Made by a program: the position numbers and the translations under genes. Shown one piece after another: positions 8,373 to 23,409 of a DNA stretch of 64,000 nt (within the stretch, counting starts at the first letter, position 1; each line of letters starts with the position of its first letter). The notes beneath the pieces are model-generated. The model saw only the letters and a list, made by a program, of their open reading frames with translations, was not told where the DNA came from and made no database searches. Origin of the DNA: Terrabacter sp. Root181 (lineage in GTDB: Bacteria > Actinomycetota > Actinomycetes > Actinomycetales > Dermatophilaceae); the NCBI RefSeq assembly GCF_001428505.1, contig NZ_LMHU01000001.1:140273-204272 (forward strand). Reading direction: 5' to 3'.

Positions 8373-11092
8373 GCTCTCCGACGTCCCGGGAATCGATCCC
8401 GGCCCCGCCGCCCTCCGCACTGGTGACGCCGCCGACCGCGGGCGAGCGCGTCCGCGCCCAGCTGGCCCGACTGCGCCCCACCACCGCCCACCTCGTCGAC
8501 GCCGGCTTCACGGTCGTGCTCGTCGGGCTCGCCCTCGTCGGCTTCCGCACGACCTTCTTCGGCCTCGGCTGGCTCTGGGTCGGCCTCGCCGGCCTCGTCA
8601 TCGGCCTCCTCGTCGCCCACGTGACGGCGACCTTCCGGGCACCCGGGATCGTCACGCTGCTCGCGGTCGCGACGGCATACCTCCTCCTCGGCGGACCCGT
8701 CGCGATCCGCGAGGATCTCATCGCGGGGTTCATCCCGTCCGGTCAGACGTTCGCGACGCTCGTGCACATGGCGGTGCCCGGCTGGAAGGAGCTGCTCACC
8801 GCGCTCCCGCCGGTCGACTCTGAGGGCCCCTACCTGGCCCTGCCGTTCCTCTTCACGCTCGTGGGGGCGGCGCTCACTTACGGCGTCGCCCGCCGCTGGA
8901 CGGGCGCCGTCACGGCTCTCGTCGCCCCGGTGCTCCTGCTCGTCGCGTCGATCGTGCTCGGCACGCTGACGCCCGCGGCCGTGCTGCTCCAGGGTGCCGT
9001 GTTCGCCCTCGTCGCCATCGGGTGGACGGCCCTGCGCAGCAACCGCAACCGCCCCGCGCTGCAGAACGGCGCCGGACGCACGACGCGGGCGGTCACGACC
9101 GCCGCCCTGCTCGCCGTCGCCACGGTGGGCGGCTTCTTCGTCGGCCCGATGCTGCCCGGCGCGGACGACGCGGGCCGCACCGTCTTCCGGGCCTCGCTCG
9201 TGCCGCCCTTCGACGTGACGCAGTACGCCTCGCCGCTCGCCGGCTTCCGGCAGTACACCGAGCCCAACGGCTCCGAGCTCTTCGACAAGACGCTGCTCAC
9301 GGTCAAGGGCCTCCCGCAGGGGGTGCCCGTGCGCATCGCGGCGCTCGACTCCTACGACGACTTCGTGTGGGGCGCCGGCAACGTTGCGAACCTCGGCTCG
9401 GGTGACGATCCCGAGGGCACGAGCTTCCGCAAGGTCGGCAGCCACATCGCCACCGAGGGCGCCGGCACCCCGGTCACCGCGACCGTGGGCGTGCCGGCCG
9501 GGGGCTACAGCGACGTCTGGCTGCCGACCTTCGGCACCGTCACCGGCCTCGAGTTCGGCGGGTCGCGCGGCGACCAGCAGTCCGATGACCTGCGCTTCAA
9601 CGTCGACACCAACACCGGCGTCCTGCCCGAGAAGCTCCAGGCCGGCGACACCTACACCGTCAGCGCCTTGGCCCAGAAGGTCGACGCCGAGCTGCCCAAG
9701 GACGTCGACGTCGCCGACGGCACCGTCGTCGACAGCCAGAACCTCACCTTCATCGACGACAAGATCTCGCCGTGGACCGAACGCGTCGACGGCCAGTGGC
9801 AGAAGGTCGTCGCCGTGGCCAAGGCGATGCAGGACGGTGCCTACACCGACGGCGGCGCCCCTGGCGACTACCAGAACGTCTTCCTCCCCGGCCACAGCCT
9901 CCGGCGCATGACGCAGTTCATGAAGGCCACGCAGCTGGCCGGCAACGACGAGCAGTACGCCTCCGCGCTGGCGCTCGCGGCGAACCGCCTCGGCCTGCCG
10001 GCCCGCGTCGTGCTCGGTGCCGAGCCCGACGCCACCGGCGCCGTCAAGGGCAAGGACGTCCACGCCTGGGTCGAGGTCGCGAGGTCGGACGGCTCGTGGC
10101 AGCCGATCTACTGGAAGCAGTTCATCCCCGACCGCAACAAGAAGCCGCAGCAGCTGATCCAGAAGTCCGAGGAGAAGAAGACCGGCGCGCAGGTGCCGCC
10201 GCCCGCGGCCAACAACCCGCCGAGCGTCCTCCAGGGGCCCGACCAGGCGCAGAACGCGACCCAGCTCAAGACGCCGCCGAAGGACGACAAGAACCCGCTC
10301 GACCCCGACAACTGGCCGGACTGGCTGCGCTGGCTCATCTTCTTCGTCGTGGTCCCGTTGATCGTGCTGCTCCTCGTCTACACCGCGATCCGGGTCGCCA
10401 AGTGGCTGCGGCGTCGCCGTCGGCGCACGACCGGAGCGACCGCGACCCGCGTCAGCGGCGGCTGGCGCGAGGTCGTCGACACGGCCCGCGACATGCAGAT
10501 GCCCTTGCCGGTCAAGGGAACCCGTCTCGAGCAGGCCCATGCCCTCGAGGAGCACGTCTTCGGACCTCCACCCGAGAAGCCCAGCCCCGTCGTCGACGGT
10601 GCGCTCATCGGCGCCCCTGCCCCGTCGGGGGGTCACGTCGCCCCGGCCGTCGACACGGAGCCGCTGCCCACCGCGGCGGGCGACGCGCCCGGCCGACAAG
10701 GGTTGGCGCTCGTGCCGCTCGCGGCCGCGGCCAACGGGCACGTCTTCGACGTCGCCGAGCCGACGCCCGAGGAGGTCGACGCCTTCTGGGCCGACGTCGA
10801 GACGGCGCGCCAGCGGATCCGCAGCGAGCAGGGCTTCTGGCAGAGGCTGCGCGGTGACCTGTCGCTGCGGACCTTCCGCGACCACCTGCCCACTGGGGCC
10901 GGCCTCGGTCCGGCCCTCGCACGGACCTCGCGCCGCCAGGGCGGGCCCCAGCAGCCGAGCCGACGCGGCAAGGCCGCCACCAAGGCCGGGATCGGCACGA
11001 CCGCTCCCACCGAGACCCGATCGAGCCGCCGCGGCGGCGCTGGCGGACGCACGAGCACCGGCAGCGGTGCCGGCAAGAAGGGTGACGCGTGA
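8369..11092 (+). CDS. TgpA-like transglutaminase-fold membrane protein, catalytic Cys missing
   Basis: 907 aa, starting inside the stop of the DUF58 gene. About six membrane segments fill the first ~260 residues (LVDAGFTVVLVGLALVGFRT, LWVGLAGLVIGLLVAHV and others). A periplasmic-type domain follows, then one more helix (about 650-672, LIFFVVVPLIVLLLVYTAI) and a basic cytoplasmic tail. The transglutaminase core is recognisable (QYASALALAANRLGLPARVV, then DVHAWVEV with His565). Where active family members have G-x-C-E-x-F-A, this protein reads GNDEQYA, so Asp527 replaces the nucleophilic Cys; the usual W-x-x-x-D-P is WQPIYWKQF, so the Asp also looks lost. I infer a non-catalytic binding or scaffold domain. 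Its stop overlaps the GTG of the EccC-like gene, so it is coupled to the secretion ATPase. Confidence 0.85.
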   Translation: MSSPTSRESIPAPPPSALVTPPTAGERVRAQLARLRPTTAHLVDAGFTVVLVGLALVGFRTTFFGLGWLWVGLAGLVIGLLVAHVTATFRAPGIVTLLAVATAYLLLGGPVAIREDLIAGFIPSGQTFATLVHMAVPGWKELLTALPPVDSEGPYLALPFLFTLVGAALTYGVARRWTGAVTALVAPVLLLVASIVLGTLTPAAVLLQGAVFALVAIGWTALRSNRNRPALQNGAGRTTRAVTTAALLAVATVGGFFVGPMLPGADDAGRTVFRASLVPPFDVTQYASPLAGFRQYTEPNGSELFDKTLLTVKGLPQGVPVRIAALDSYDDFVWGAGNVANLGSGDDPEGTSFRKVGSHIATEGAGTPVTATVGVPAGGYSDVWLPTFGTVTGLEFGGSRGDQQSDDLRFNVDTNTGVLPEKLQAGDTYTVSALAQKVDAELPKDVDVADGTVVDSQNLTFIDDKISPWTERVDGQWQKVVAVAKAMQDGAYTDGGAPGDYQNVFLPGHSLRRMTQFMKATQLAGNDEQYASALALAANRLGLPARVVLGAEPDATGAVKGKDVHAWVEVARSDGSWQPIYWKQFIPDRNKKPQQLIQKSEEKKTGAQVPPPAANNPPSVLQGPDQAQNATQLKTPPKDDKNPLDPDNWPDWLRWLIFFVVVPLIVLLLVYTAIRVAKWLRRRRRRTTGATATRVSGGWREVVDTARDMQMPLPVKGTRLEQAHALEEHVFGPPPEKPSPVVDGALIGAPAPSGGHVAPAVDTEPLPTAAGDAPGRQGLALVPLAAAANGHVFDVAEPTPEEVDAFWADVETARQRIRSEQGFWQRLRGDLSLRTFRDHLPTGAGLGPALARTSRRQGGPQQPSRRGKAATKAGIGTTAPTETRSSRRGGAGGRTSTGSGAGKKGDA

Positions 11093-14000
11093 AGCTGAAG
11101 TTCGTCCTCCGGTCGGGAGACCGTGAGACCGACCTCGTCGCGACGACGGACTCCGCCACCACGGTCGGGGACCTCGCGGCCTACCTCGCCGCCGCGGACC
11201 CGCACCGGTCGAGCGTGCTCGGGGTCGACACGTCGATGACACTGGCCCTCGTCGACCAGGACATGCGTGGCCTCGACCCGCGCGCGACCGTCGCCGAGAG
11301 CGGCCTCCAGTCCGGCATGCGGGTCTCGACGACCCGCGCCGGCGAGGGCTTCGTCGACCGTGGCCGACCCGCCGCCGTCGCCTACATCCGCTCGGGCCCC
11401 GACGCAGGGCGCGAGTTCCCGCTCGCCCGCGGGACGGCATACATCGGTCGTGGCCGCGGCTGCGAGGTGCAGCTCTCCGACGAGTCGGTCTCGCGCAAGC
11501 ACGCCAAGCTCGTCATCCAGGAGGTCGTCGAGGTCGTCGACCTCGGCTCGGCCAACGGCATCACCGCCGGCGGGCAGCAGGTCACCCGCGCCCACCTCAA
11601 GAGCGGCGACGTCGTGCGGGTCGGCGACACCGAGCTCGAGGTGCACCTGCAGGGCGACGGCGTCGTGAGCCGTCCCGGCAGCGGTGTGCTCTCGGGCGAC
11701 GCCGGCACCGTGGCGTTCTCGCGCTCGCCGCGCGTGGCCCCGCTCTTCGCCGGGCAGGAGTTCCAGGTGCCCGACCTGCCCGAGCGGGGCAAGCCCAACC
11801 CGATGCCGCTCGTCGCGATGCTCGTGCCGCTGCTCATGGGCATCGTCATGTACCTCATCACCCGCAGCGCCTTCTCGATCATCTTCATGCTGATGATGCC
11901 GATGATGATGGCGGGCACCTACTACGAGGCCCGCCGTCAGCAGAAGAAGGACTTCGCGCAGGCGATGGAGGACTTCACGGAGGACCTCGCCCTGCTCTCG
12001 CAGCGCATCCGCGGGTCCCTGGAGGTCGAGGGCCACACCCGACGTGGGGAGCACCCCAGCGGCGTCGACTGCCTGACCGCCGTGCGCGACCGCAGCGCGC
12101 TGCTCTGGACCCGCCGGCGCGACGGCAACGGCCACGCCGAGCTGCGGCTCGGGCTCGGCACCCGCCCCTCCCGCTCCGCCATCAAGATGCCCGCCGTCGG
12201 CCGCTCCAAGGCCGAGGCATGGCTCGAGGTGTCGGAGCAGCTGCACGGCCTCGAGGTCGTGCACGACGTGCCGATCGTCGCGTCGCCGCTGACCGACGGA
12301 GCCATCGGAGTGGCGGGCCAGCGCGCCAACGCCCTCGGTGCGGCCCGTTCGGTCGTGCTCCAGACCGCGGCGCTGCACTCGCCTGCCGAGCTCGCCGTCT
12401 GCTCCTTCGCCTCCGGCAGCTCGGCCCGCGACTGGGACTTCCTCAAGTGGCTCCCGCACACGACCTCGCCGCACAGCCCCATCGGCACCGACCACCTCGC
12501 GGCCAGTGCCCCGGCCTGCTCGGCGCTCGCCGACGCCCTCGAGGACATCATCGAGGCCAAGGGCACCGCTAAGGGCACCGCCCAGGAGCAGGAGCAGGCC
12601 GGCGCCGAGCGCCCGACCGTCCTCGTGCTCGTCGAGAGCGACGCCCCCATCGACCGCAGCCGCCTCGTCGCCATCGCCGAGCGCGGCCACCGCCAGGGTG
12701 TCGTCGTCGTCTGGGTCGCCGAGACCCAGCAGCTGCTCCCGGCCGCGTGCCACACCTTCCTCGTCGTCAGCGACGACCAGAGCTCCCTTGCCGGCTACGT
12801 CCACGCCGGCGAGGAGGTGCAGCCCGTCGCCGTCGACCGCATCGGCTACGACGAGGCGATGGCCTGCGCACGTCAGCTCGCGCCCGTCGTCGACGCCGGC
12901 GTGCCCGTCGACGACGCGAGCGACCTGCCGCGGGCCGTCTCGCTCCTCACCCTCGCCGGCACCGACCTCGCGAGCTCCGAGGAGGCCGTCATCGAGAAGT
13001 GGGGCGAGTCGCGCTCGATTCTCACCGGCCCGTACGCCCCCGCCGTCCTGCCTCGCAGGCCCGCCAACCTGCGCGCCATCGTGGGCCAGTCGAGCCAGGG
13101 CACCTTCTCGGTCGACATCCGCTCCGACGGCCCCCACGCCCTCGTCGGCGGCACGACCGGCGCCGGCAAGTCCGAGCTGCTCCAGGCGTGGATCCTCGGC
13201 ATGGCCGCAGCGCACTCCCCGCAGCGCGTCACCTTCCTGCTCGTCGACTACAAGGGCGGCTCGGCCTTCCGCGACTGCGTCAAGCTGCCGCACACGGTCG
13301 GCCTCGTCACCGACCTGTCGCCGCACCTCGTACGCCGGGCGCTCGCGTCGCTCGCGGCCGAGCTGCACTACCGCGAGCACCTGCTCGCCCGGCACAAGGC
13401 CAAGGACCTCGTCGAGCTCGAGCGCCGCGGCGAGGTCGATGCCCCGCCGTCGCTGATCATCGTCGTCGACGAGTTCGCGGCGCTCGTCCAGGAGGTGCCG
13501 GAGTTCGTCGACGGCGTCGTCAACGTCGCCCAGCGCGGCCGCTCGCTCGGGCTGCACCTCATCCTCGCGACGCAGCGGCCCGCCGGCGTCATCAAGGACA
13601 ACCTGCGCGCCAACACCAACCTCCGCATGGCGCTGCGCATGGCCGACGAGAACGACTCCGACGACGTGCTCGGGTCCAAGGAGGCCGCCTTCTTCGACCC
13701 CGCGCTGCCCGGCCGTGCCGTGTCCAAGACCGGCCCTGGCCGGCTCGTCCCCTTCCAGACGGGGTATGCCGGTGGGTGGACCTCCGACGTCCCGCCGCCG
13801 CCCGACATGAAGGTCGAGACGCTGACCTTCGGCCGCGGCACCGAGTGGGAGCCGCCGCGCGCCGAGGGCGCCGACGAGGCCGCCGACCTCGGGCCCACCG
13901 ACATCCAGCGGCTCGTCGTCACGCTCGGCCGCGCCGCCCGGGTCGCCGAGCTGCCCAAGCCGCGCAAGCCGTGGCTGCCTGACATGCGCTCGGTCTACGA

Positions 14001-15501
14001 CCTCGCGACCCTGCCGACGCAGCGCCGCGACGACGAGCTCGTCTTCGGTGTCGCCGACGATCCCGACAACCAGGCCCAGCCCGAGATCGCGTTCCGCCCG
14101 GACAAGGAGGGCAACATCGCGATCTACGGCACGTCGGGCTCCGGCAAGTCGGTCTTCCTCCGCTCGATGGCGGTCGCGGCCGGCTACACCGTGCGCGGCG
14201 GGCCCTGCCACGTCTACGGCCTCGACTTCGGCAACCGTGGCCTCGCGATGCTCGAGTCGCTGCCGCACGTCGGCTCGATCATCCCCGGCGGTGACCACGA
14301 GCGCGTCATCCGACTCCTCCGGACGCTGCGCGCGACGATCGACGAGCGGGCCTCGCGCTACTCGGCCGTCAGCGCCGCGACGATCACCGACTACCGGCGC
14401 CTCGCCGGCCGCCCCGACGAGCCGCGCGTCATCGTCCTCATCGACAACATGACCGCCTTTCGTCAGGCCTACGAGGTCGGCGGTCGCTTCCAGTGGCTCG
14501 ACATGCTGGCCGGGCTCGCCGCCGACGGGCGCCCCGTCGGCGTCCACTTCATCATCGCCTCCGACCAGCGCACCGGCCTGCCGACCAACCTCGCGGCCGC
14601 CGTGCAGGGCCGGATCATCCTGCGCATGAGCAACGTCGACGACTACTCCGTCTTCGGCGTGCCCGGTGACGTGCTGACGATGGCCTCGCCCTCCGGCCGT
14701 GGCCTCATGTCCGGCTCCGAGGTGCAGGTCGCGGTGCTCGGCGGCTCGTCCGACGTCACGGTGCAGGCCGCCGCGATCCAGGCCTTCGCCGACGCGACGC
14801 GCAAGGCCGGCGTCAGCCAGGCGCCGCCGATCGAGAGCCTCGCAGAGGTCATCCCGGTCGGCGACCTCCCGTCGGAGCTCGGCGGTCGTCCCGTCGTGGG
14901 TGTCGCCTCCTCGACGCTCGAGCCGATCGGCTTCGACCCGAAGGGCACGTTCATCGTCACCGGTCCCTCCGGCTCGGGACGCACGACGGCGGTCGCGACG
15001 ACCGCGGCCGGCCTCTTCCGGTTCAGCTCCGGCTCGGCGCTCTACCTCATGACGCCGCGCCGAACGTCGGAGCTGCTCGACCTCGGGATCTGGGCCGAGA
15101 CGGCCGTCGGCGGAGAGGCCACCGCTGCACTCGCAGCCCGGCTCGCGGCCGAGATCGAGGAGGGACGCGTCACGCGGCCCATCGCGGTCTTCGTCGAGCG
15201 CATCGACGATCTCGCGCCGTCGGGCGCCGAGAACGCCCTGACCACCCTGACCAAGGCCTGCGTCGACGACGACCAGCTCGTCGTCGCCGAGGGCGAGGCG
15301 GCCTTCTTCAGCAGCAACTTCGGGCTCCAGGCCCTGCTCAAGACGTCGCGCTCGGGCCTCGCCCTTCACCCCGACGGCAACGAGGGGCTCTCGGTCTTCA
15401 AGGCCAACCTCCCCGCCCTCAACCGGGCAGAGCTCCCCCCGGGCCGCGGGTTCATCATCGAGAAGGGCCGTTTCGAGCTGGTCCAGGTGGCCCTCCCATG
15501 A
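11089..15501 (+). CDS. EccC-like FHA-FtsK/SpoIIIE type VII secretion ATPase
   Basis: 1,470 aa; GTG start overlapping the upstream TGA. Order: a ubiquitin-like N-terminal region (about 1-80), an FHA domain (about 95-185; YIGRGRGCEVQLSDESVSRKHA, then LGSANG) that would bind phosphothreonine, two membrane helices (about 240-280), then three FtsK/SpoIIIE ATPase modules. Module 1 has an intact Walker A (GGTTGAGKSE, Lys694) and Walker B (LIIVVDEF, Asp794-Glu795). Module 2 has GTSGSGKSV (Lys1020) but an Asn after the Walker B Asp (VLIDNM). Module 3 reads GPSGSGRTT, with Arg1298 where Lys is expected. This is the EccC layout, in which the motor binds WXG100 substrates and drives export. The two WXG100 genes follow directly. 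EccB, EccD, EccE and mycosin genes are not in the window. Confidence 0.92.
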   Translation: MKLKFVLRSGDRETDLVATTDSATTVGDLAAYLAAADPHRSSVLGVDTSMTLALVDQDMRGLDPRATVAESGLQSGMRVSTTRAGEGFVDRGRPAAVAYIRSGPDAGREFPLARGTAYIGRGRGCEVQLSDESVSRKHAKLVIQEVVEVVDLGSANGITAGGQQVTRAHLKSGDVVRVGDTELEVHLQGDGVVSRPGSGVLSGDAGTVAFSRSPRVAPLFAGQEFQVPDLPERGKPNPMPLVAMLVPLLMGIVMYLITRSAFSIIFMLMMPMMMAGTYYEARRQQKKDFAQAMEDFTEDLALLSQRIRGSLEVEGHTRRGEHPSGVDCLTAVRDRSALLWTRRRDGNGHAELRLGLGTRPSRSAIKMPAVGRSKAEAWLEVSEQLHGLEVVHDVPIVASPLTDGAIGVAGQRANALGAARSVVLQTAALHSPAELAVCSFASGSSARDWDFLKWLPHTTSPHSPIGTDHLAASAPACSALADALEDIIEAKGTAKGTAQEQEQAGAERPTVLVLVESDAPIDRSRLVAIAERGHRQGVVVVWVAETQQLLPAACHTFLVVSDDQSSLAGYVHAGEEVQPVAVDRIGYDEAMACARQLAPVVDAGVPVDDASDLPRAVSLLTLAGTDLASSEEAVIEKWGESRSILTGPYAPAVLPRRPANLRAIVGQSSQGTFSVDIRSDGPHALVGGTTGAGKSELLQAWILGMAAAHSPQRVTFLLVDYKGGSAFRDCVKLPHTVGLVTDLSPHLVRRALASLAAELHYREHLLARHKAKDLVELERRGEVDAPPSLIIVVDEFAALVQEVPEFVDGVVNVAQRGRSLGLHLILATQRPAGVIKDNLRANTNLRMALRMADENDSDDVLGSKEAAFFDPALPGRAVSKTGPGRLVPFQTGYAGGWTSDVPPPPDMKVETLTFGRGTEWEPPRAEGADEAADLGPTDIQRLVVTLGRAARVAELPKPRKPWLPDMRSVYDLATLPTQRRDDELVFGVADDPDNQAQPEIAFRPDKEGNIAIYGTSGSGKSVFLRSMAVAAGYTVRGGPCHVYGLDFGNRGLAMLESLPHVGSIIPGGDHERVIRLLRTLRATIDERASRYSAVSAATITDYRRLAGRPDEPRVIVLIDNMTAFRQAYEVGGRFQWLDMLAGLAADGRPVGVHFIIASDQRTGLPTNLAAAVQGRIILRMSNVDDYSVFGVPGDVLTMASPSGRGLMSGSEVQVAVLGGSSDVTVQAAAIQAFADATRKAGVSQAPPIESLAEVIPVGDLPSELGGRPVVGVASSTLEPIGFDPKGTFIVTGPSGSGRTTAVATTAAGLFRFSSGSALYLMTPRRTSELLDLGIWAETAVGGEATAALAARLAAEIEEGRVTRPIAVFVERIDDLAPSGAENALTTLTKACVDDDQLVVAEGEAAFFSSNFGLQALLKTSRSGLALHPDGNEGLSVFKANLPALNRAELPPGRGFIIEKGRFELVQVALP

Positions 15502-15510
15502 CACCCCCCT

Positions 15511-15583
15511 CGCAACACACCCAGAAGGTCACCACACACCGGGATCGGATGCCGGTGAGTTGCGACCTACTCGGTGTGTTGCG
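15511..15583. repeat. Long imperfect inverted repeat downstream of the EccC-like gene
   Basis: The arm CGCAACACACC at 15511-15521 is matched exactly in reverse complement at 15573-15583. Pairing continues imperfectly inward (CAGAAGGTC against GACCTACTC), giving about 20-bp arms around a ~30-nt centre. It begins 10 bp after the EccC-like stop. It could form a transcript-ending structure or a paired protein site; there is no U-tract. This is the left part of a 373-bp stretch (15502-15874) without a gene. Confidence 0.5.
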
Positions 15584-15685
15584 GAGTCGGGCGTGGGGTC
15601 GTGACGGGACCAGAAGCGTTGGGGCACCAGGGATTCGGGGAGGCACACGGCATACGCCATCGGTGCCGCACAAGGCCCTCGGATC

Positions 15686-15703
15686 ATGGGGAGTGCTCCC
15701 CAT
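15686..15703. promoter_or_regulatory. Palindrome upstream of the WXG100 genes (candidate operator)
   Basis: ATGGGGAG-TG-CTCCCCAT is a perfect 8-bp-arm palindrome. It is nested inside a second pair, GCCCTC (about 15675) and GAGGGC (about 15714). It lies about 170 bp before the first WXG100 start, in the only sizeable gap of the locus, so it is a plausible site for a regulator that lets the WXG100 pair be expressed separately from the ATPase. The rest of 15502-15874 shows only one GGCATAC heptamer (15649) and no convincing gene. Confidence 0.4.
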
Positions 15704-15874
15704 CGACACCCCCTGAGGGCTGACATAGGTTTCTGCATGTCGACGAAAGCCGCCCATCGGGACGAACCGCCCGGGGCACGGACGTCGAGGAGTTGGCACA
15801 GCGCGGGCCTGCACGGTTGGTCCGGAAGAGAACTTCCCGAATCAGTCGGGGGAACACAGGCGAAGGAGAATGTC

Positions 15875-16150
15875 ATGGCTTGGCTCGGTATGAACGACGA
15901 TGAGGTCAACGCCCAGGGCAACGTCCTGCAGCAGCAGGCGGAGGCCATCCAGAAGCTCATCACCAAGGTCGACCAGGAGGTCGAGTCCCTGAAGCAGAAC
16001 TGGCAGGGTGACGACTCCAAGCAGTTCGAGCAGGAGTGGACCGGCACGCACCGCCCCGAGCTCCAGAAGGCCCAGAAGCTGCTCACCGAGATGAAGTCGA
16101 CGATCGACCACGAGGTCCAGCAGCAGCGCAGCACCTCGTCGCAGTACTGA
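15875..16150 (+). CDS. WXG100 (ESAT-6-like) protein 1
   Basis: 91 aa; ATG with AAGGAG six bases upstream. The central WQG turn (LKQNWQGDDSKQF) and two flanking amphipathic helices are typical of WXG100 proteins, secreted as helical-hairpin dimers by ESX/type VII systems. The C-terminal part continues with TEMKSTIDHEVQQQ. A second WXG100 gene follows after 54 bp, so a heterodimer is likely. The genes lie directly after the EccC-like ATPase, the presumed exporter. Confidence 0.92.
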   Translation: MAWLGMNDDEVNAQGNVLQQQAEAIQKLITKVDQEVESLKQNWQGDDSKQFEQEWTGTHRPELQKAQKLLTEMKSTIDHEVQQQRSTSSQY

Positions 16151-16204
16151 CCCACCTCATCTCGCTCACGACCAACACACGCAGACTTCTGAAGGGGAAC
16201 TGAC

Positions 16205-16480
16205 ATGGCTGTTTACAAGAAGGGTATGAACGCCGACGCGGTGTCCGCGTCCGGTGACAAGCTCGTCGGCTACAAGGGCGAGCTCGACGGCATCGTCGAG
16301 GCCGTCAACGGCGCCGTCTCCACGATCAAGAGCAACTGGGGCGGCACGGACGCCGACCGCTTCCAGAGCGACTGGCACGGCCAGCGCCAGGTCGTCTCGG
16401 CCGCCGGCGACAAGCTCGACGCCATGGGCAAGAAGTGCAAGACCAACGCCGAGTCGCAGAAGCAGACGTCGTCGAAGTGA
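16205..16480 (+). CDS. WXG100 (ESAT-6-like) protein 2
   Basis: 91 aa, the same length as its upstream partner; ATG preceded by GAAGGGGAACTGAC. The signature is IKSNWGGTDADRFQSDW, with helices before (VEAVNGAVSTIKS) and after (ISAAGDK-like region). Sequence identity with the first WXG100 protein is low outside the W-x-G turn, as is usual for EsxA/EsxB-type partners. A strong hairpin terminator follows 43 bp downstream and closes the type VII-like locus. Confidence 0.92.
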   Translation: MAVYKKGMNADAVSASGDKLVGYKGELDGIVEAVNGAVSTIKSNWGGTDADRFQSDWHGQRQVVSAAGDKLDAMGKKCKTNAESQKQTSSK

Positions 16481-16585: not shown

Positions 16586-16613
16586 GTATCAATTCGCTTG
16601 ACAGCCGCGTCTG
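16586..16613 (+). promoter_or_regulatory. ECF-type promoter block, copy 1 (sigma factor gene)
   Basis: GTATCA (16586-16591), 12 bp, then GCCGCGTCTG (16604-16613), ending 44 bp before the sigma start. The same block with identical spacing precedes both S8 protease genes. Read as a promoter, GTATCA is the -35 and CGTCTG the -10 with a 16-bp spacer, matching the geometry and the CGTC core of ECF promoters. The simplest reading is autoregulation by the sigma factor encoded here. Confidence 0.72.
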
Positions 16614-16657
16614 CCCGGTGTGAGACCTAGACTGAGCACCCAGAGGAGGGGCGACGC

Positions 16658-17242
16658 ATGGGCGGACCTGGTGAACTCACCGAGCTGGTCGCCCGCGCCT
16701 CCCACGGAGAAGCCGCGGCGTGGAACGCCATCGTCGACCGCTTCGCGCCGTTGCTCTGGGGCGTCGCCCGCGGCTACCGGCTCCGCCAGGAGGACGCCGC
16801 CGACGTCGTGCAGAACACGTGGCTCAAGCTCCTCGACCACCTCGACTCGATCAAGCAGCCCGAGGCGTTGGCCGGATGGCTGTCGACGACGGCCCAGCAC
16901 GAGGCCCTGGCGGTCCTGCGCAAGGGCAAGCGCGAGCACCTCGTGCGCGACGACGACCTCGCGACGAACGTGCCCGACGAACAGGCGCTCGCCCTGGACG
17001 CGGCGCTGCTCGACGACGAGCGCGACGGCGAGCTCTGGACGTGCTTCGGCCACCTGTCGGAACCCTGTCAGGTGCTCCTCCGGGCGCTCATGGCGAGTGA
17101 TCGCCCGAACTACAAGGTCATCTCGGAGGCGCTCGGGATGGCGGTCGGCTCGATCGGGCCGACGCGGATGCGCTGCCTCGACAAGCTCAGGGAGATCGTC
17201 CGGAAGTCCGGATCCGACCTCGACACGGAAAGGGGGGCGTGA
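16658..17242 (+). CDS. ECF-type RNA polymerase sigma factor
   Basis: 194 aa; ATG start with GAGGGGCGACGC upstream. Region 2 lies at about residues 20-90 (WNAIVDRFAPLLWGVARGYR, DAADVVQNTWLKLLDHLD, GWLSTTAQHEALAVLRK), region 4 at about 125-185 (LSEPCQVLLRALMAS, KVISEALGMAVGSIGPTRMRCLDKLR). There is no adjacent zinc-finger anti-sigma gene. Instead a 161-aa protein of unknown function overlaps its stop, and a CHAT protease lies convergent beyond that. The promoter block in front of this gene recurs before the two S8 proteases, so they are its likely targets. The nearby TTGACA (16598-16603) lies inside the 12-bp spacer of the shared block. Confidence 0.9.
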   Translation: MGGPGELTELVARASHGEAAAWNAIVDRFAPLLWGVARGYRLRQEDAADVVQNTWLKLLDHLDSIKQPEALAGWLSTTAQHEALAVLRKGKREHLVRDDDLATNVPDEQALALDAALLDDERDGELWTCFGHLSEPCQVLLRALMASDRPNYKVISEALGMAVGSIGPTRMRCLDKLREIVRKSGSDLDTERGA

Positions 17243-17724
17243 TGACTGACCACGACCTGCACGTCGACGACGCGGAGCTCCTCGCGCGCCTGCGGCGGAT
17301 CGCCGACACGGTCGACCCCGTCCCCGAAGACGTCGTCGAGCTCGGCCGGGCCGCGTTCGAGCTGCGGCACACCGACGCCATCCTCATGACCATGGCGGCC
17401 GAGGCGCTCTCCGGTGCCGACCTCCGCGCCGCCGGCGACCAGGGCTCGAGTCGCCTGCACGTCTTCGAGCACGACGGCGTCTCGATCGAGGTCGAGGTGA
17501 CCGCTCGCGGCGAGTTCGCCCGGGCTGTCGGCATCGTCGACGACTCGTCGGGCGCCGACCTGTCGGGAGCCCACGTCTCCGTCGAGACGACGTCGTCGTC
17601 GATGACTGTGGACCTCGAAGGGGGCCGTTTCACGGTCGAGCGCGTGCCGCTGAGGCTGGCCCGTATCGTGCTGGAGCGATCCGGCGAGCGTCTCATGGTC
17701 ACACCGTGGTTCGACGTCGGCTGA
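17242..17724 (+). CDS. Protein of unknown function coupled to the ECF sigma factor
   Basis: 160 aa from the ATG at 17242, which overlaps the sigma stop by one base (TGATG); a GTG three bases earlier is an alternative. I do not recognise the family. The N-terminal ~60 residues are helical and acidic (DAELLARLRRIADTVDPVPEDVVELGRAAF). The rest looks like a beta sandwich (VSIEVEVTARGEFARAVGIV, VETTSSSMTVDLEGGRFTVE, ERLMVTPWFDV). There is no signal peptide, membrane helix or zinc motif. Coupling to the sigma gene and the convergent CHAT gene 9 bp away suggest a regulator, adaptor or substrate of the protease system (inference only). Confidence 0.75.
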   Translation: MTDHDLHVDDAELLARLRRIADTVDPVPEDVVELGRAAFELRHTDAILMTMAAEALSGADLRAAGDQGSSRLHVFEHDGVSIEVEVTARGEFARAVGIVDDSSGADLSGAHVSVETTSSSMTVDLEGGRFTVERVPLRLARIVLERSGERLMVTPWFDVG

Positions 17725-17733
17725 GCACCGCGC

Positions 17734-20529
17734 TCAGGCACCCCACGCCGTGAACGACGCCGCCGTCGCGGCGCGGAGCGGATCGCCGACAGCCTCGGTG
17801 CGGGCCTCGAGCCAGCCCTCCGCGACCGAGCCCGTGCGCTCGGCCACGCGGTGGACGTCCTCCATGATCCGCAAGCAGCCCTGGTCGTTGACGGGCACGA
17901 CACTGGCCAGTACGACGGAGGTGCCCATGCCGAGCAGGTTGGCGACGAGTCCGAGCGCCTCGTAGGGGCCGATCGAGGCCGCGCCACCCGAGTCGCAGGC
18001 AGAAAGCACGAACGAGCGAGGAGGCTCGCGCAGCTCACGCAGGTCGTGCACGGTGAGCGGCCCGTCCGCCATCTGCAGCGACGAGAACAGGGGCGCGTCG
18101 GCGCGGAAGACCCCGTGGGCCGCGATGTGTGCGAGGGATGACCCGTCGATGGCCTCGATGGCCGCGGCGACGGTGGCCTCTTCGGCGTGCAGGACCCGTG
18201 CCTGCCGGTGGATCGCGCTGAGGCCGGTCACCTCCGCCTCACGGCTCGTCAGGTTCGGACCCGTCACGAGCGCCACCTCGCCACCTTGGCCGCCTTCGCC
18301 GCCTTGGCCGCCTTGGCCGCCTTGGCCGCCTTGCCCAACGGCCCGGCGACGGGCCCGCAACCACTGGCTCACCGACGGGCTCACGGTGAGCACGACGTCA
18401 CGAAAATCGGGAAGCAGCCCCCACGGAGCGGTCAGGAGGTGGGCCGGGGGAACGACGACGACGCGCGAGGGCTGTCCTGGGAGGACTCGTGTCGGGCCGA
18501 GCAGGGCGTCCCGAAGCAGCCGCGCCGCGGTGTCGAGGTCGACCGGTCGCCCGTGTGCCGCCCGACGCAGGGTGAGGCGCGCGAAGTCGGCCTCGCGCTC
18601 GGCGCCCGCCGTGGGACCGGCGACGGTGTGCCGGACCCGACCTCGGGACACGGTGAGGACGTGCAGTGTTCCTCGCTCGTCGACGATGTCAACGAGGACA
18701 CCGTCGTCCTCGAGGGCGGCGAAGACCTCCTCCAGGTCCACGCGTGAACCTGCCTGCCGGCCGGGTGAGCCGACGACCCGGTGGCTGCCCGACGCTCTCT
18801 GGTGGCGGTACGCACGTCGTAGACCGTTCTCGAGCCGAGCACGTTCGCGCACCAGGCCGGCGGCCGTGACGGCGCCGGCGTCGAGCGAGCTGAGTCGGCG
18901 GGTGACGTCGCGCAGCGCCGCCAGGTCACGGCGGAGCCCCGGGTCGTCAGCCCGCGTGGCGCCGTCGAAAGCGGCAGCACGCCACCGCTCGGCCCACCAC
19001 AGCAGCTCGCGCGGACGGTGCGAGCGCACGGCTTCGTCGACCGCGAGCCGCGAGAACTCGATCCCGTGCCCGCTCGCGAGCGCCCGCAGCTCGATGTCGC
19101 CCAGCCCGTCGCGGTGCTCGTCCACGGCGTCCAGTCCTCGGCGGCAGGCGAGGTAGATGCCGCGCCGATCACGGCGGTGGACGGCGAGCAGGGCGGCGGC
19201 GAGCCAGCCGGCCGCGCGTGACAGGGGCGCCCCGACCCGACGTGTGGCAGCCGCTTCCTCCAGAGCAGCGGTCGCCTCGTCGCCGCGTCCTGCGTCCCCG
19301 CAGATGCGTCCGTGCAGCACCAGTGCCACGGGAAGCTCGCCGGCGTCCGACGAGCGCATCGAGTCGACCAGGGCCGACGACTCGCGCAGGAGCATCTCCT
19401 TGCGCCGCGCACGCGCTGTCGGGCTGCGCAGGGGTCTCTGCGCCTCGTCGATCATCCACGGTCCTGACTCGGGGTGGTCGGCGACGTAACGGGCACGCAG
19501 TCGCAGCAGCAGCGCCCGGTCCTGCCAGGCCGGACGCCGCTGGGAGGCGAAGAGCCTTGCCGCCTTGTCGGCCATGCCCTCGGCGGCGACGACGTCTCCC
19601 GTCCCCAGCGCGGCGCGGGCTGCGACGAGCAGCATCTCGGCCCGACGAACCGGGGCCAGGTCCGGCTCGGCCAGCGTCCGCGCGGACAGGGCCAACGCCT
19701 CCTCCGTGAGGCCCGCCGTGAGCAACGTGTGGACCTTGTCGATGGTGAGGTCGTGACGGATGTTGCCCAGTTCAACATACCGGTCCGCGGCCCGGTCCAG
19801 CAGCGTCAGCGCCTCGGGCAGGTCGCCACGGTCATGCGCTGCGAGCGCGCGGTTGTGCATCGACTGGGCCTCCTCCCAGTCCTGCCCGATGGTGCGGAAG
19901 AGCTCCTCGGCCCTGCGCGCATCGGCGTCCGCGGCCTCGGTCTCGCCGAGTGCCAGGAGGGCGTCGAAGCGGTTGTTGTAGGCGCGGGCCTCCCAGAGCG
20001 TGTCGTGGTTCCAGTGCAGGCCGCCGATGGCTCGGCTGGCGTCGTCGACGGCCTCTCGGTAGCGCGCCAGCATGGTGAGCACGTGCGCCCGACGCAGATA
20101 CAGCCGGGGAAGCTCGCGCGGCGGCGTGATCGGGACGGCCTCCTCCAGGCGACGGAGCGCCTCGTCGGTCCGCCCGGCATACGCCAGGACGACTCCCAGC
20201 GTCGCGAGCACGTCCGCCTGTCGATCCAGCGTCACCCGGCGAGCGTGCCGGAGGGCCAGGAAGCCGTGCCTGACCGCGTCGTCCATGTGTCCGCTGTCAC
20301 GGTTGACGATGGCCAGAGCCTGGTGGGCGACGGAGAGGTCGCCGGACTGTGCCGAGGACCCGATGACGACGGTCGCGCTCTGCGTGGCCGCACGAGGGTC
20401 CGAGATGGCCAGGGCCAGCAGACTCTCGGCGAGCGTCCGCGTGGCAGCGGACAGCTCCGACGCGGAACCCGCCCGCCGAGAGGCCACGGGAGGAGTATCA
20501 GACCGTCGCCGTGCCGCATCTGGGCTCAT
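17734..20529 (-). CDS. TPR-CHAT caspase-like protease
   Basis: 931 aa from the ATG at 20529, with GAGG eight bases upstream. The N-terminal ~550 residues are tetratricopeptide-like helical repeats (LATLGVVLAYAGRTDEALRRLEEA, HNRALAAHDRGDLPEALTLLDRA). The C-terminal CHAT domain carries the catalytic His (SLAHIAAHGVFR, His805) and Cys (FVLSACDSGGA, Cys845). CHAT domains are caspase-clan cysteine proteases; TPR-CHAT proteins usually sense a cue through the repeats and then cut a partner. No signal peptide or membrane segment, so it acts in the cytoplasm. A Gly-Gly-Gln tandem repeat lies inside the CHAT domain (about residues 733-750). It is divergent from the first S8 gene with starts only 31 bp apart, and convergent with the sigma operon. 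A shared function with these neighbours is inferred from position and promoters. Confidence 0.9.
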   Translation of the reverse strand: MSPDAARRRSDTPPVASRRAGSASELSAATRTLAESLLALAISDPRAATQSATVVIGSSAQSGDLSVAHQALAIVNRDSGHMDDAVRHGFLALRHARRVTLDRQADVLATLGVVLAYAGRTDEALRRLEEAVPITPPRELPRLYLRRAHVLTMLARYREAVDDASRAIGGLHWNHDTLWEARAYNNRFDALLALGETEAADADARRAEELFRTIGQDWEEAQSMHNRALAAHDRGDLPEALTLLDRAADRYVELGNIRHDLTIDKVHTLLTAGLTEEALALSARTLAEPDLAPVRRAEMLLVAARAALGTGDVVAAEGMADKAARLFASQRRPAWQDRALLLRLRARYVADHPESGPWMIDEAQRPLRSPTARARRKEMLLRESSALVDSMRSSDAGELPVALVLHGRICGDAGRGDEATAALEEAAATRRVGAPLSRAAGWLAAALLAVHRRDRRGIYLACRRGLDAVDEHRDGLGDIELRALASGHGIEFSRLAVDEAVRSHRPRELLWWAERWRAAAFDGATRADDPGLRRDLAALRDVTRRLSSLDAGAVTAAGLVRERARLENGLRRAYRHQRASGSHRVVGSPGRQAGSRVDLEEVFAALEDDGVLVDIVDERGTLHVLTVSRGRVRHTVAGPTAGAEREADFARLTLRRAAHGRPVDLDTAARLLRDALLGPTRVLPGQPSRVVVVPPAHLLTAPWGLLPDFRDVVLTVSPSVSQWLRARRRAVGQGGQGGQGGQGGEGGQGGEVALVTGPNLTSREAEVTGLSAIHRQARVLHAEEATVAAAIEAIDGSSLAHIAAHGVFRADAPLFSSLQMADGPLTVHDLRELREPPRSFVLSACDSGGAASIGPYEALGLVANLLGMGTSVVLASVVPVNDQGCLRIMEDVHRVAERTGSVAEGWLEARTEAVGDPLRAATAASFTAWGA
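18280..18333 (-). repeat. 9-bp tandem repeat (six units) inside the CHAT coding region
   Basis: Six copies of GCCGCCTTG (four exact, two with one change) encode a run of Gly-Gly-Gln/Glu within the CHAT domain. The unit is a multiple of three, so copy-number change would alter loop length without a frameshift. Confidence 0.85.
20495..20522 (+). promoter_or_regulatory. ECF-type promoter block, copy 2 (first S8 protease)
   Basis: GTATCA (20495-20500), 12 bp, GCCGCATCTG (20513-20522), ending 38 bp before the S8 ATG. It differs from copies 1 and 3 by one base in the right half. The block lies within the first dozen codons of the oppositely oriented CHAT gene, so firing here would run against CHAT transcription. 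Confidence 0.7.
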
Positions 20530-20560
20530 GCCAACATCCTCGACCCCAAAGGAGGCCGAC

Positions 20561-21814
20561 ATGGCCGCATCGTGGTGGACCACTGCAGTTCCGAACCCGC
20601 CCCAACGAGACCGGTACCGGGCGCAGATCGACAAGATGATCACCCGCTTCAACGGCCGGGTGGCTCCCTTCCCGCAGGTCGCGGACCTCGCGGACGCCGT
20701 CTTCCTGCACAGCACGCAGCACGTATTGGCTCGCGACGACGGGAACCTTCCGCAGGTGCTCGGTGCCCTGAACCTGACCCCGGCGAGTGTCGACCGACCC
20801 GTCGCGGGACTGGCCCGCGTCCGACTCGATGCGGGAACCACTGCACCGCAGGCGATTCAGCGGGTCGAGACGGCAGCCGGGACGAGGCTGGCCGTCTTCG
20901 ACCGCGTCGTGCACATCGCGTCCGCGAGCGCGTGCCCCGCCACCGAGCCGGAGGCAACGGCCAGCCGGTCGCCCGTGCCACCTTCCAACGGCAAGCCCGT
21001 GCCGTTGCGGGCGGTGCACGTGGCGATCATCGACACCGGCCTCCCGCCCCGTGCCGGCGGCGGGACGATGTCGCTCGACCAGTGGCCCTGGATGCAGAAC
21101 GTCACCGGCGGCCCGGAAGACTCCAGCCACGCGGGCCACTACAAGGGTCACGGTCTCTTCGTGGCCGGTGTGCTGGCGGCGGTCGCACGAGCGGCAACCA
21201 TCAAGGTGCACCCGTTCATCTTCACGAACGGGGGACAGCTCGAGAGCGACCTCGTCGGTCTCATCGCCAAGGCAGCGTCGGAGAACCCGAGGCCCGACAT
21301 CATCAGCATGTCGGCCGGCACGTCGTTGCACGGTCCCGCGATCGGCGTCGACACGGATCCCCTGCTCGGCTTCGACGCGCTGGGGCAGCACCTGGCGCAG
21401 CAGGGAACGCTGCTCGTCTGCGCAGCGGGCAACGACGCAGGTCCCGGCCCGTTCGAACCAGCCAGCCTCGGGTGGCCCGTGGCCGTCGGCGCCCTGAACG
21501 CCGACGGCTCGCTGGCGGGGTACAGCAACCGGGGCCCGTGGGTCGACGTCTATGCGCGGGGGACCGACGTCGTCAACGCGTTCAAGAACGGGGCCTACGT
21601 CTACGAGGAGCCGCCGCGCGCCGGCGGACCCGCACTCGTCGTGAACAACTGGCTCGCTTCGTGGACCGGGACGTCTTTCGCGACCCCGATCGTGGCCGGT
21701 GCCATCGCCAACCGCATGGCGGTCCACAACGAGACGGCAGCGGTGGCGTGGGCGGCGATCAAGCTCGCCGCGGACCAGCAGGCTGGTGCAGGTGGGCTGC
21801 CGACGATTCCTTGA
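20561..21814 (+). CDS. Subtilisin-like (S8) serine protease 1, cytoplasmic, CHAT-associated
   Basis: 417 aa; ATG with a near-perfect AAAGGAGG five bases upstream. Catalytic residues are Asp158 (VHVAIIDTGL), His197 (AGHYKGHGLFVAGVL), oxyanion Asn291 (LLVCAAGNDAGPGPF) and Ser372 (SWTGTSFATPIVAG). There is no signal peptide and no Tat motif, unlike ordinary secreted subtilases. The N-terminal ~120 residues (RDRYRAQIDKMITRF, then a small alpha/beta region) look like a pro-domain, ending in a SASACPATEP segment that is conserved in the paralogue downstream. It is driven from its own ECF-type promoter and divergent from the CHAT protease. I infer an effector protease kept latent until the pro-region is removed, possibly by CHAT. 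Confidence 0.9.
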   Translation: MAASWWTTAVPNPPQRDRYRAQIDKMITRFNGRVAPFPQVADLADAVFLHSTQHVLARDDGNLPQVLGALNLTPASVDRPVAGLARVRLDAGTTAPQAIQRVETAAGTRLAVFDRVVHIASASACPATEPEATASRSPVPPSNGKPVPLRAVHVAIIDTGLPPRAGGGTMSLDQWPWMQNVTGGPEDSSHAGHYKGHGLFVAGVLAAVARAATIKVHPFIFTNGGQLESDLVGLIAKAASENPRPDIISMSAGTSLHGPAIGVDTDPLLGFDALGQHLAQQGTLLVCAAGNDAGPGPFEPASLGWPVAVGALNADGSLAGYSNRGPWVDVYARGTDVVNAFKNGAYVYEEPPRAGGPALVVNNWLASWTGTSFATPIVAGAIANRMAVHNETAAVAWAAIKLAADQQAGAGGLPTIP

Positions 21815-21827
21815 CCCGGCGCCTCTG

Positions 21828-21859
21828 CGGCACATGTCCGAAACCGCGGACATGTGCCG
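21828..21859 (+). terminator. Hairpin after the first S8 gene
   Basis: A perfect 13-bp stem, CGGCACATGTCCG (21828-21840) and its reverse complement (21847-21859), with a 6-nt loop, starting 13 bp after the stop. No T run, so either a Rho-assisted end or a stabilising structure. It isolates the second S8 gene, which has its own promoter. Confidence 0.55.
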
Positions 21860-21955
21860 TATCGGCGCGAGACCATGGACGACGGTGGGCTGACGCCCAC
21901 CTGACGGGACGTCGAACAGGGCAACACAGGGTCTTCGACAGGTCTCGGGGGAGGG

Positions 21956-21983
21956 GTATCAGACCCACGCGCTGCCGCGTCTG
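21956..21983 (+). promoter_or_regulatory. ECF-type promoter block, copy 3 (second S8 protease)
   Basis: GTATCA (21956-21961), 12 bp, GCCGCGTCTG (21974-21983), ending 40 bp before the ATG. Similarity with copy 2 extends on the left (GAGGRGTATCAGACC) and to the leader just before the ribosome-binding site, consistent with a duplicated unit of promoter plus gene. Confidence 0.72.
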
Positions 21984-22023
21984 GCTCGGTGACCCCGACC
22001 CCCTCGACCTCACGGAGGCTCAC

Positions 22024-23409
22024 ATGGCCACGGACAACGAGTCGAAACGCACCACCAGCAGACGCCGGCGCCCGCGCCCGGCTGCCGGAAAGGACTGGGA
22101 TCGCGAGCGCTACCGCGCCCAGATCGAGCAGATGCTCCGGGACGTGAACAATGAGACGTTCAACAGCTCGCGCAAGGTCCGGGTCATTCCCTACCCGGAG
22201 AGCAAGGACCTCGCCGACACCCGTTTCCTCCACCGCGAGGACACCATCCTCACCAGGGACTCCACCGCGGCGGAGGTGCGCCGAATCCTCGGCATCGCTG
22301 CCCCTCGGCGGCCTGGCCGCCGTCCGGACCCTCGCCTGCCCGCGCAGATCCGAGGACTGACCGTGCTCACGGTTCCCAAGGGGGAGACCGCCGTATCCGC
22401 CGTCCAAGCTGTCAACGCGGTTCTGGGTCGTGGGGTCGCCACCCTGGATCGAGTCCTGCACCTCACGTCTTCCAGCGCGTGCCCCGCCACTGAACCCATT
22501 CCCGCCTCCGGGGTACCGGTGCCGGGCATCTCTCGGCACCGGAAGCTCGGGCGCGGTGTCAAGGTCGCCGTCATCGACACAGGTCTACACGCCTCGACAA
22601 GGGCGTTGGCACCCGAGCACTGGCTCGAGGGTGTGGATGGGGGGCTTGAACCAGCCTCTATTGCCGGCCACTACGTCGGTCATGGAGAGTTCGTTGCCGG
22701 GGTCCTGCGCACCATGGCACCGTCCGCAGAGGTCTACGTCCACCCCTTCTTCTTCACGAGCGGCGGCGTGATCGAGAGCGACCTGGCTCCACTTCTCGTC
22801 CACGCGCTGGCGACGAGCCCGGACATCATCAGCATGTCCGCTGGGATCGACCTGTCACCTGAGGGGCTGGCGGACCTCAACAGCACGGCGCAGGTCGACG
22901 ACCTCTCGGACGCGCTCATATCCCTCGAGGCGTTCTACGAGGAGCACCTCAAGTGCTCTGCGACGCTGTTGGTCTGCGCGGCCGGGAACGACGGCAACAG
23001 AGGGCCGTTCGCACCCGCGAGCACGTGTTGGGCTGTGGCCGTCGGCGCGCTGGATGCTCAAGGTAGGCGCGCGGACTACAGCAACAGGGGTCCGTGGGTC
23101 GATGTGTACGCGCGCGGCTCGGACATGGTCAACGCGTACCCCGACGGGTCGTACACCTACACCGAGGACGAGGGTCTCATCGGTTCTACCGCGTACTTCA
23201 CCCACGGCTTGGCGCGGTGGAGCGGAACGTCCTTCTCGACCCCCCTCGTCGCCGGACTCGTGGCGGCTCGGATGTCCTGGAGTGGCGAGCCGCCACGCGA
23301 GGCGTGGGAGCAGCTGCTCGCCAACGCAAGAGTGCGCAGGGGGATGAGAGTGTTGCGACCTGGCGACGCAGACCGGGGCGTGAATCCTCCGCGCGGGTGG
23401 AGAGGTTGA
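22024..23409 (+). CDS. Subtilisin-like (S8) serine protease 2, tandem paralogue
   Basis: 461 aa; ATG with ACGGAGG upstream. Triad: Asp185 (VKVAVIDTGL), His220 (AGHYVGHGEFVAGVL), Asn322 (LLVCAAGNDGNRGPF), Ser403 (RWSGTSFSTPLVAG). It shares with protease 1 the WDRERYRAQIEQML opening, the SSSACPATEP segment (Cys153), PDIISMSAG and YSNRGPWVDVYARG. It is longer, with a basic Arg-rich N-terminus (SRRRRPRPAAGK) and insertions around residues 275-310. No signal peptide, so a cytoplasmic location is likely. Codon use is somewhat less G+C-rich than its neighbours, suggesting older divergence or different selection. It carries the same promoter block as protease 1 and the sigma gene. Confidence 0.9.
   Translation: MATDNESKRTTSRRRRPRPAAGKDWDRERYRAQIEQMLRDVNNETFNSSRKVRVIPYPESKDLADTRFLHREDTILTRDSTAAEVRRILGIAAPRRPGRRPDPRLPAQIRGLTVLTVPKGETAVSAVQAVNAVLGRGVATLDRVLHLTSSSACPATEPIPASGVPVPGISRHRKLGRGVKVAVIDTGLHASTRALAPEHWLEGVDGGLEPASIAGHYVGHGEFVAGVLRTMAPSAEVYVHPFFFTSGGVIESDLAPLLVHALATSPDIISMSAGIDLSPEGLADLNSTAQVDDLSDALISLEAFYEEHLKCSATLLVCAAGNDGNRGPFAPASTCWAVAVGALDAQGRRADYSNRGPWVDVYARGSDMVNAYPDGSYTYTEDEGLIGSTAYFTHGLARWSGTSFSTPLVAGLVAARMSWSGEPPREAWEQLLANARVRRGMRVLRPGDADRGVNPPRGWRG

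Follow-up and report, generated by a model that had tools for sequence, protein, structure and literature searches.

In the type III-E CRISPR system Craspase, the tetratricopeptide-repeat (TPR) CHAT protease Csx29 cuts Csx30, a protein that binds and inhibits the extracytoplasmic function (ECF) sigma factor CASP-sigma, and motifs for CASP-sigma lie within its own locus (PMC10028731, available portion). The same portion describes how proteolysis of anti-sigma factors controls ECF sigma factors in the RseA/DegS and RsiW cases. In Calp, the protease CalpL cuts the anti-sigma factor CalpT and so releases CalpS (PMC12751052, available portion). Here, we describe a locus of Terrabacter sp. Root181 that encodes an ECF sigma factor, a small protein that we call P2, a TPR-CHAT protease and two S8-family subtilases. 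It lies in a stretch of 64,000 nucleotides (nt), the window (G000:C1:140273-204272, in a source genome of 4.9 Mb), and positions without a prefix are those of this stretch. We found no description of a sigma/P2/TPR-CHAT/S8 set in the PubMed Central literature, subscription papers and preprints being mostly outside that search. We give an even chance to the view that this conserved actinobacterial four-gene set is a cytoplasmic, protease-gated sigma-factor switch, in which CHAT would cut P2, the sigma factor would be freed and S8 would be transcribed.

The gene set and its spread in Actinomycetota

The five genes occupy positions 16658-23409. We delimited them from open reading frames, Pfam matches and relatives, the gene caller having misplaced the S8 genes. 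The sigma gene (16658..17242, + strand) encodes 194 residues and scores above the cut-offs of TIGR02937 (sigma70-ECF; 63.2 bits versus 42.9) and Sigma70_r2 (47.5 versus 24). P2, of 160/161 residues, follows on the same strand at 17239/17242..17724, its start overlapping the sigma stop. On the opposite strand lies the 931-residue TPR-CHAT protease (17734..20529), which matches CHAT (PF12770, 84.2 bits versus 24) and TPR_12 (43.3 versus 30.1); its His805 and Cys845 are invariant in an alignment with three relatives, none of which carries a GGQ/GGE-repeat insertion found within the window's CHAT region at 18280-18335. The subtilases S8-1 (20561..21814, +, 417 residues) and S8-2 (22024..23409, +, 461 residues) match PF00082 at 90.3 and 91.5 bits (cut-off 21.8), with the Asp, His, Asn and Ser members of the site present (Asp158, His197 and Ser372 in S8-1; Asp185, His220 and Ser403 in S8-2). 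A hydropathy scan found no signal peptide or membrane helix in any of the five proteins, the highest 19-residue Kyte-Doolittle means being 1.83 for CHAT and 1.72 and 1.29 for the S8 proteins. Hence, the initial annotation of this DNA was sound on the gene set, which is intact, on the catalytic residues that it named (Cys845, Ser372 and Ser403), which are in place together with the other members of each site, and on the lack of signal peptides in the subtilases.

We collected relatives of the locus by P2 alone; counts made with hidden Markov models rest on profiles whose seeds were four or five loci. P2 relatives occur in 63 of 119 family genomes (30 of 53 genera) and in at least 36 of 296 phylum genomes. 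The family set comprises 78 of the 81 P2 rows from outside the source genome, three partial matches having been left out. The phylum set comprises 31 regions that cover 32 of 44 rows; the others were the source genome's own (two), already included (one) or partial (nine). One record appears twice, as L035 and L066, and is counted under both names in the promoter, P2 and S8-junction tallies.

Within 8 kb of P2, the 78 family loci carry a sigma gene in 77 cases, CHAT in 71, S8 in 73 and all four genes in 68. Five of the 10 incomplete loci are on short contigs, by a list entered by hand. Near P2 in the 31 phylum loci, we counted sigma in 26, CHAT in 21, S8 in 19 and the full set in 19, and L154 is also complete by eye. 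A survey of gene neighborhoods had been the proposed check on the initial annotation, failure of the genes to co-occur elsewhere being the outcome that would have spoken against it; that outcome did not arise, and co-occurrence at the family and phylum loci rules out chance clustering. The genes come in at least six orders: 44 loci read S8-sigma-P2-CHAT, 16 resemble the window, 5 read sigma-P2-S8-CHAT and others differ again. Two named CHAT relatives, from Terracoccus sp. 273MFTsu3.1 and Intrasporangium calvum, each come from a locus that has the window layout, with a single S8 next to sigma, P2 and CHAT. The source genome itself holds a second copy of the set on contig 5 (L020), arranged S8-sigma-P2-CHAT in one direction. 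Both subtilases predicted for the window are there, and yet a pair of them is no trait of the system: 16 of 17 loci of the window layout have one S8, the window being the only one with two. A strict CHAT active-site pattern matched 68 of 86 proteins and the S8 pattern GTSxxxP matched 82 of 99, where many of the printed misses show variation next to the same Cys or Ser or are truncated frames; the claim of intact protease active sites is thus limited to the window.

The association also holds where the genes are split. In four genomes with sigma-P2 alone (G018, G203, G235 and G278), CHAT and S8 are adjacent elsewhere in all four, and no P2 lies closer than about 8 kb to the unlinked pair; two of the four unlinked stretches have weaker sigma-like frames without P2. 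G160 is mixed, with some P2 genes alone, one complete locus and several CHAT-S8 pairs. Sigma-P2-CHAT without S8 was seen at L135 and L137, in two genomes of one genus: G107 has no S8 match, and those in G054 are all weak (best, 4.4e-12). Each of the six tested genomes whose P2 locus lacked CHAT, that of L127 included, proved to contain it.

Genes that we take, from their sequence, to be cysK-like and pheA-like flank 15 and 12 of 111 loci, respectively. Because some loci adjoin such core genes, their neighborhoods point to a role in regulation or stress more than to phage defense. PADLOC gave no match for sigma or P2 and only weak ones for the CHAT and S8-1 proteins; S8-2 matched a generic "subtilase" model (1.9e-11). 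PHROGs returned generic sigma and protease matches on the locus, plus two unnamed families, and Rfam had no match in the window. When run against the source genome, the system's CHAT profile matches this system's two CHAT proteins and not the five other CHAT genes. Three of those five (L018, L019 and L021) adjoin a caspase-like gene by eye, and neither P2 nor S8 was found at these three.

Promoters shared by the sigma factor and subtilase genes

The sigma, S8-1 and S8-2 genes are each preceded by a 27-bp element of the form TATCA-N16-C[G/A]TCTG, which we predict to be a sigma-dependent promoter. All three elements are on the + strand: GTATCA-N16-CGTCTG at 16586..16613 before sigma-P2, GTATCA-N16-CATCTG at 20495..20522 before S8-1, inside the first codons at the CHAT 5' end, and GTATCA-N16-CGTCTG at 21956..21983 before S8-2. 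The exact pattern TATCA-N14..20-CGTCTG occurs twice in the window versus 0.02 times expected in shuffles, in agreement with the promoters by which the initial annotation had tied the genes to one sigma factor, and five times in the whole 4.9-Mb genome. When the pattern was relaxed at two bases and held to the 27-bp length, the genome had six sites, of which three precede sigma, S8-1 and S8-2; a reversed-pattern control had three.

These elements are conserved, and they follow the gene order. Of the 16 loci with the window layout, 15 have GTATC ahead of sigma and 15 have it ahead of S8; the reverse complement gave 0 and 0, and reversed letters gave 1 for S8 and 0 for sigma. Between S8 and CHAT, 0 of 16 such loci have a GTATC directed at CHAT, and CHAT therefore fits a constitutively made sensor better than an output of the sigma factor. 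In S8-first operons, 39 of 44 loci have GTATC ahead of S8 versus 3 of 44 with the letters reversed; the reverse complement reached 32 of 44, owing to another motif copy that faces away. Sigma is internal to these operons and has GTATC upstream in only 2 of 44 and GTATCA in 0 of 44. In the sigma-first operons, the motif precedes sigma in five of five loci and S8 in none of five. Copies of the motif also lie near the distant sigma genes of the split genomes, and the unlinked S8 genes of G018, G203 and G278 have GTATCA 118 to 198 nt ahead of the point where the profile match begins, while 0.03 copies would be expected per 300 nt.

Across six genomes, exact GTATCW-N15..17-CGTCTG occurs zero to five times each; its reversed control occurs zero times in five of them and once in G063. 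Four genomes of the window's genus have it three to five times, with two copies at the system locus every time. So few copies per genome would fit a small, self-regulated regulon. A likely further member is a gene starting MAQASVGL, which the motif precedes in two genomes of the genus (G000:C9:341826-341853, that is, L022:9827-9854, L200; and G113:C10:293586, L199). Its product, of 354 residues in G000, is hydrophobic in the C-terminal half by eye and has no Pfam match. In all four same-genus genomes (L185, L193, L195 and L196), GTATCTG...CGTCTG also stands about 94 to 119 kb from the system locus, before a stretch that is alike by eye and in which no consistent reading frame was called, possibly a conserved untranslated RNA.

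Motif copies that face away from the operon were seen in 36 S8-first loci. Thirteen of these (L020:4997-5164, - strand, and 12 sister loci; chosen by eye because they look alike, four of them of the window's genus) precede a GC-rich structured RNA, in which a hairpin GCTGC-GGAGGG-GCAGC sits within an outer stem and is followed by a terminator-like hairpin. In the alignment, 91.6% of cells are paired and 10 of 21 pairs have two-sided changes; 0 of 500 shuffles scored as high on two-sided changes and 68 of 500 did so on pair types, the structure being taken from the same alignment. At the three of the 13 loci that were tested, Rfam had no match to this RNA, and over six sister loci it had only three tRNA matches. 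In L094, L097, L098, L105, L119 and L128, the divergent motif instead precedes a protein gene of an "IRxxKExxEDELLA...GVDI" type, with 462 residues in L119 and, for that copy, only a subthreshold Nal1_C match.

P2 and the candidate substrates of CHAT

P2 looks like a cytoplasmic anti-sigma factor because it lies directly behind sigma and has a helical N terminus, a beta C terminus and, between them, an arginine that is invariant in 115 of 115 sequences. Measured from the last base of the sigma stop, a start codon in the P2 frame falls between -12 and +30 nt in 53 of the 78 family loci and 13 of the 31 phylum loci; of the 53, 29 overlap by 4 nt and 15 begin one nt after. The window P2 has only a subthreshold CarboxypepD_reg match, and this domain matches the C-terminal part of 22 of 57 relatives (E<=0.01). 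Arg62 is the sole invariant column over the 115 sequences (L127 was left out for a masked stretch), in a context of about L-x-[GAT]-[VT]-R-[GSA]. It is kept in 30 of 30 representatives below 40% identity, and P28 joins it as invariant in the 57-sequence alignment. The residue is flanked by an N-terminal part, in which D-P-x-P is conserved, and by the C-terminal beta part, at distances from the flanking conserved residues that vary from 31 to 47 (113 of 115 shown) and from 8 to 19. A low-confidence model built from three sequences has helices at 8-23 and 29-58 and strands from 67, which would put Arg62 in the connecting coil.

Perhaps, then, P2 is what CHAT cuts? We consider it the best candidate substrate, since it lies directly behind sigma and its only invariant residue is at the domain boundary, and we read Arg62 as most likely the cut site, a contact with sigma being the alternative. 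The switch would run as follows. P2, coproduced with the ECF sigma factor, would keep it inactive. The TPR part of TPR-CHAT would sense a signal, and the activated protease would cut P2 at the domain boundary, most likely beside Arg62. The freed sigma factor would then transcribe its own operon and the S8 gene or genes from the GTATCA-N16-CGTCTG promoters, and the S8 protease would be the output enzyme, changing the proteome through whatever targets it has.

Several observations weigh against this switch. In 25 of the 78 family and 18 of the 31 phylum loci, the rule used detected no P2 start codon close to the sigma stop. No anti-sigma domain profile in Pfam matched any of 57 P2 members (E<=0.01). 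A search of the P2 profile against the PDB gave no meaningful match and no chain below an E value of 0.6, the presence of Csx30 among those chains being unconfirmed, and the P2 model is poor (mean predicted local distance difference test [pLDDT] score, 42). Arg62 is also kept in P2 proteins without a neighboring CHAT, although the tested genomes of this kind carry CHAT elsewhere. The three Craspases studied cut Csx30 at nonconserved A|S, L|D and M|K sites (PMC11106740, available portion); an invariant arginine is thus not required for a cut by a TPR-CHAT protease, and Arg62 could contact sigma instead. In G235, no motif precedes the unlinked S8. Finally, the two proteases remain neighbors in the genomes where they are separated from sigma-P2, an arrangement that would be consistent with a direct link between them.

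Such a link was the core of the initial annotation, which had CHAT activate the subtilases in a cascade under transcriptional control of the sigma factor and left P2 out of the mechanism. In this alternative, which we consider rather unlikely, TPR-CHAT would cut the S8 proteins between pro-domain and catalytic domain, sigma would only supply the proteins and P2 would be an accessory. The adjacency of CHAT and S8 in four of four genomes with sigma-P2 elsewhere keeps the idea alive, and the S8 junction is special. S8-2 has a probable ferredoxin-like pro-domain at about 69-144, followed by a CPATEP junction (model from four sequences, mean pLDDT of 43; no match at E<=0.001 in a fold search). The "SACPATEP" segment singled out earlier is real: its C and E-P are kept at the pro-domain junction in 18 of 18 S8 proteins of the window layout, two of them judged by eye. 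Near-perfect tandem repeats of 6 to 11 residues stand just after the pro-domain in 54 of 76 S8 proteins (L020 and L068-L143), none of the 54 being of the window layout. However, the repeat unit varies between genera (GYWGGVG, GYASGV, GYGDGV, NPVGRG, PYWVGT and others), so that a common CHAT recognition site is not evident; copy number differs even within a genus. One thought is that the repeat is a released peptide. Moreover, the pro-domain of the S8 proteins is probably I9-like, by a low-confidence model, and a subtilase would normally remove such a pro-domain itself. The loci with sigma, P2 and CHAT in G107 and G054, one genus where S8 is missing or matched only weakly, also tell against this alternative. 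We favor P2 over S8 as the substrate of CHAT, because sigma-P2-CHAT can lack S8, CHAT was present in each of the six genomes tested for it and Craspase provides a precedent. What stands of the initial annotation is a conserved multigene system with two kinds of protease tied by promoters to one sigma factor; the cascade as it was stated is not favored.

Could the roles of the proteases be reversed, with S8 cutting P2 in a feed-forward loop and CHAT acting as a downstream effector? S8 is under the sigma promoter and lies in or beside the sigma-P2 operon in most of the fetched loci, as such a loop would have it. We regard it as improbable, since CHAT was present in six of six tested genomes without it at the P2 locus, whereas S8 can be missing (G107 and G054), and since none of the 16 loci of the window layout has a GTATC directed at CHAT between S8 and CHAT.

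The neighborhood of the window raised one further idea, that the S8 proteins are mycosin-like proteases serving a type VII secretion system (T7SS). Directly upstream, at 11089-16480, lie an FtsK/EccC-like ATPase gene (11089-15501, named by eye) and genes for two WXG100 proteins, part of an ESX-like group, and a mycosin model is the best NCBIfam match of both S8 proteins. Yet these matches (TIGR03921; 56.1 and 80.6 bits) are far from the cut-off of 278.75. Mycosins carry a signal peptide and a C-terminal membrane anchor, and the window S8 proteins have neither by the hydropathy scan. T7SS genes flank only 7 of 111 clustered loci. Loci without T7SS genes and mycosin scores below the cut-off largely rule out a T7SS accessory role, to which we assign a very small probability.

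Comparison with described systems

The subtilases share the S8 family and the catalytic triad with mycosins and with IetS, but the window proteins score far below the curated cut-offs: the S8 proteins reach only 19.3 and 12 bits with the IetS profile, for which the cut-off is 900, and the IetS matches of PADLOC are weak. In the CHAT/caspase-gasdermin defense pairs, a CHAT protease is encoded beside its candidate protein substrate. Here, in contrast, Pfam finds no gasdermin among the five window proteins, and the output would be transcription rather than a pore. RseA/DegS and RsiW differ in that P2 has no membrane segment and that the candidate protease of the present system is a cytoplasmic relative of caspases.

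Calp shares the logic of a protease that cuts an anti-sigma factor to release a sigma factor. Its protease, however, is a Lon-SAVED protein activated by cyclic tetra-adenylate (cA4) and not a TPR-CHAT protein, and no S8 gene is mentioned in the available portion of its description (PMC12751052). The output arm of Craspase is closer: as far as that description goes (PMC10028731, available portion), a TPR-CHAT protease, an ECF sigma factor, a third protein that would be inhibitor and substrate, and sigma motifs in the system's own locus are common to both. The differences are as follows. For Cas7-11, we found no RAMPs (PF03787) match in the source genome, in a search that was positive in 4 of 14 control genomes, and the output of the present system is a subtilase. 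P2, with 160 residues and a CarboxypepD_reg-like part, has no meaningful similarity to a solved chain, and the system belongs to Actinomycetota, in part beside core genes. The profile of its CHAT retrieved only TPR proteins from the PDB at E<=0.001.

A fuller version of the switch is one that we hold more tentatively, at somewhat short of an even chance. It would be a CRISPR-independent counterpart of the Craspase output across Actinomycetota, in which CHAT cuts a cytoplasmic anti-sigma factor at the invariant arginine, the cytoplasmic S8 protease is thereby switched on and two protease families are chained by transcription; the sigma factor of sister loci would also drive the RNA or the protein gene, and the S8 repeat would possibly be a released product. 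A substrate is known for few of the CHAT proteases of bacteria, and the switch, if true, would supply a testable substrate and cut site for TPR-CHAT proteins without a CRISPR partner. The locus is also the source of a well-defined sigma factor, whose promoter motif is compact and whose regulon is likely small, and it draws attention to two elements of no known role, the covarying RNA and the repeat-bearing subtilases. We conclude that the system, by analogy, appears to work like the output arms of Craspase and Calp but is not a member of either, because it has no Cas7-11, by the RAMPs search of the source genome, and no Csx30 recognized in the PDB search. If so, the protease/anti-sigma/sigma logic of Craspase and Calp would also stand alone in actinobacteria.

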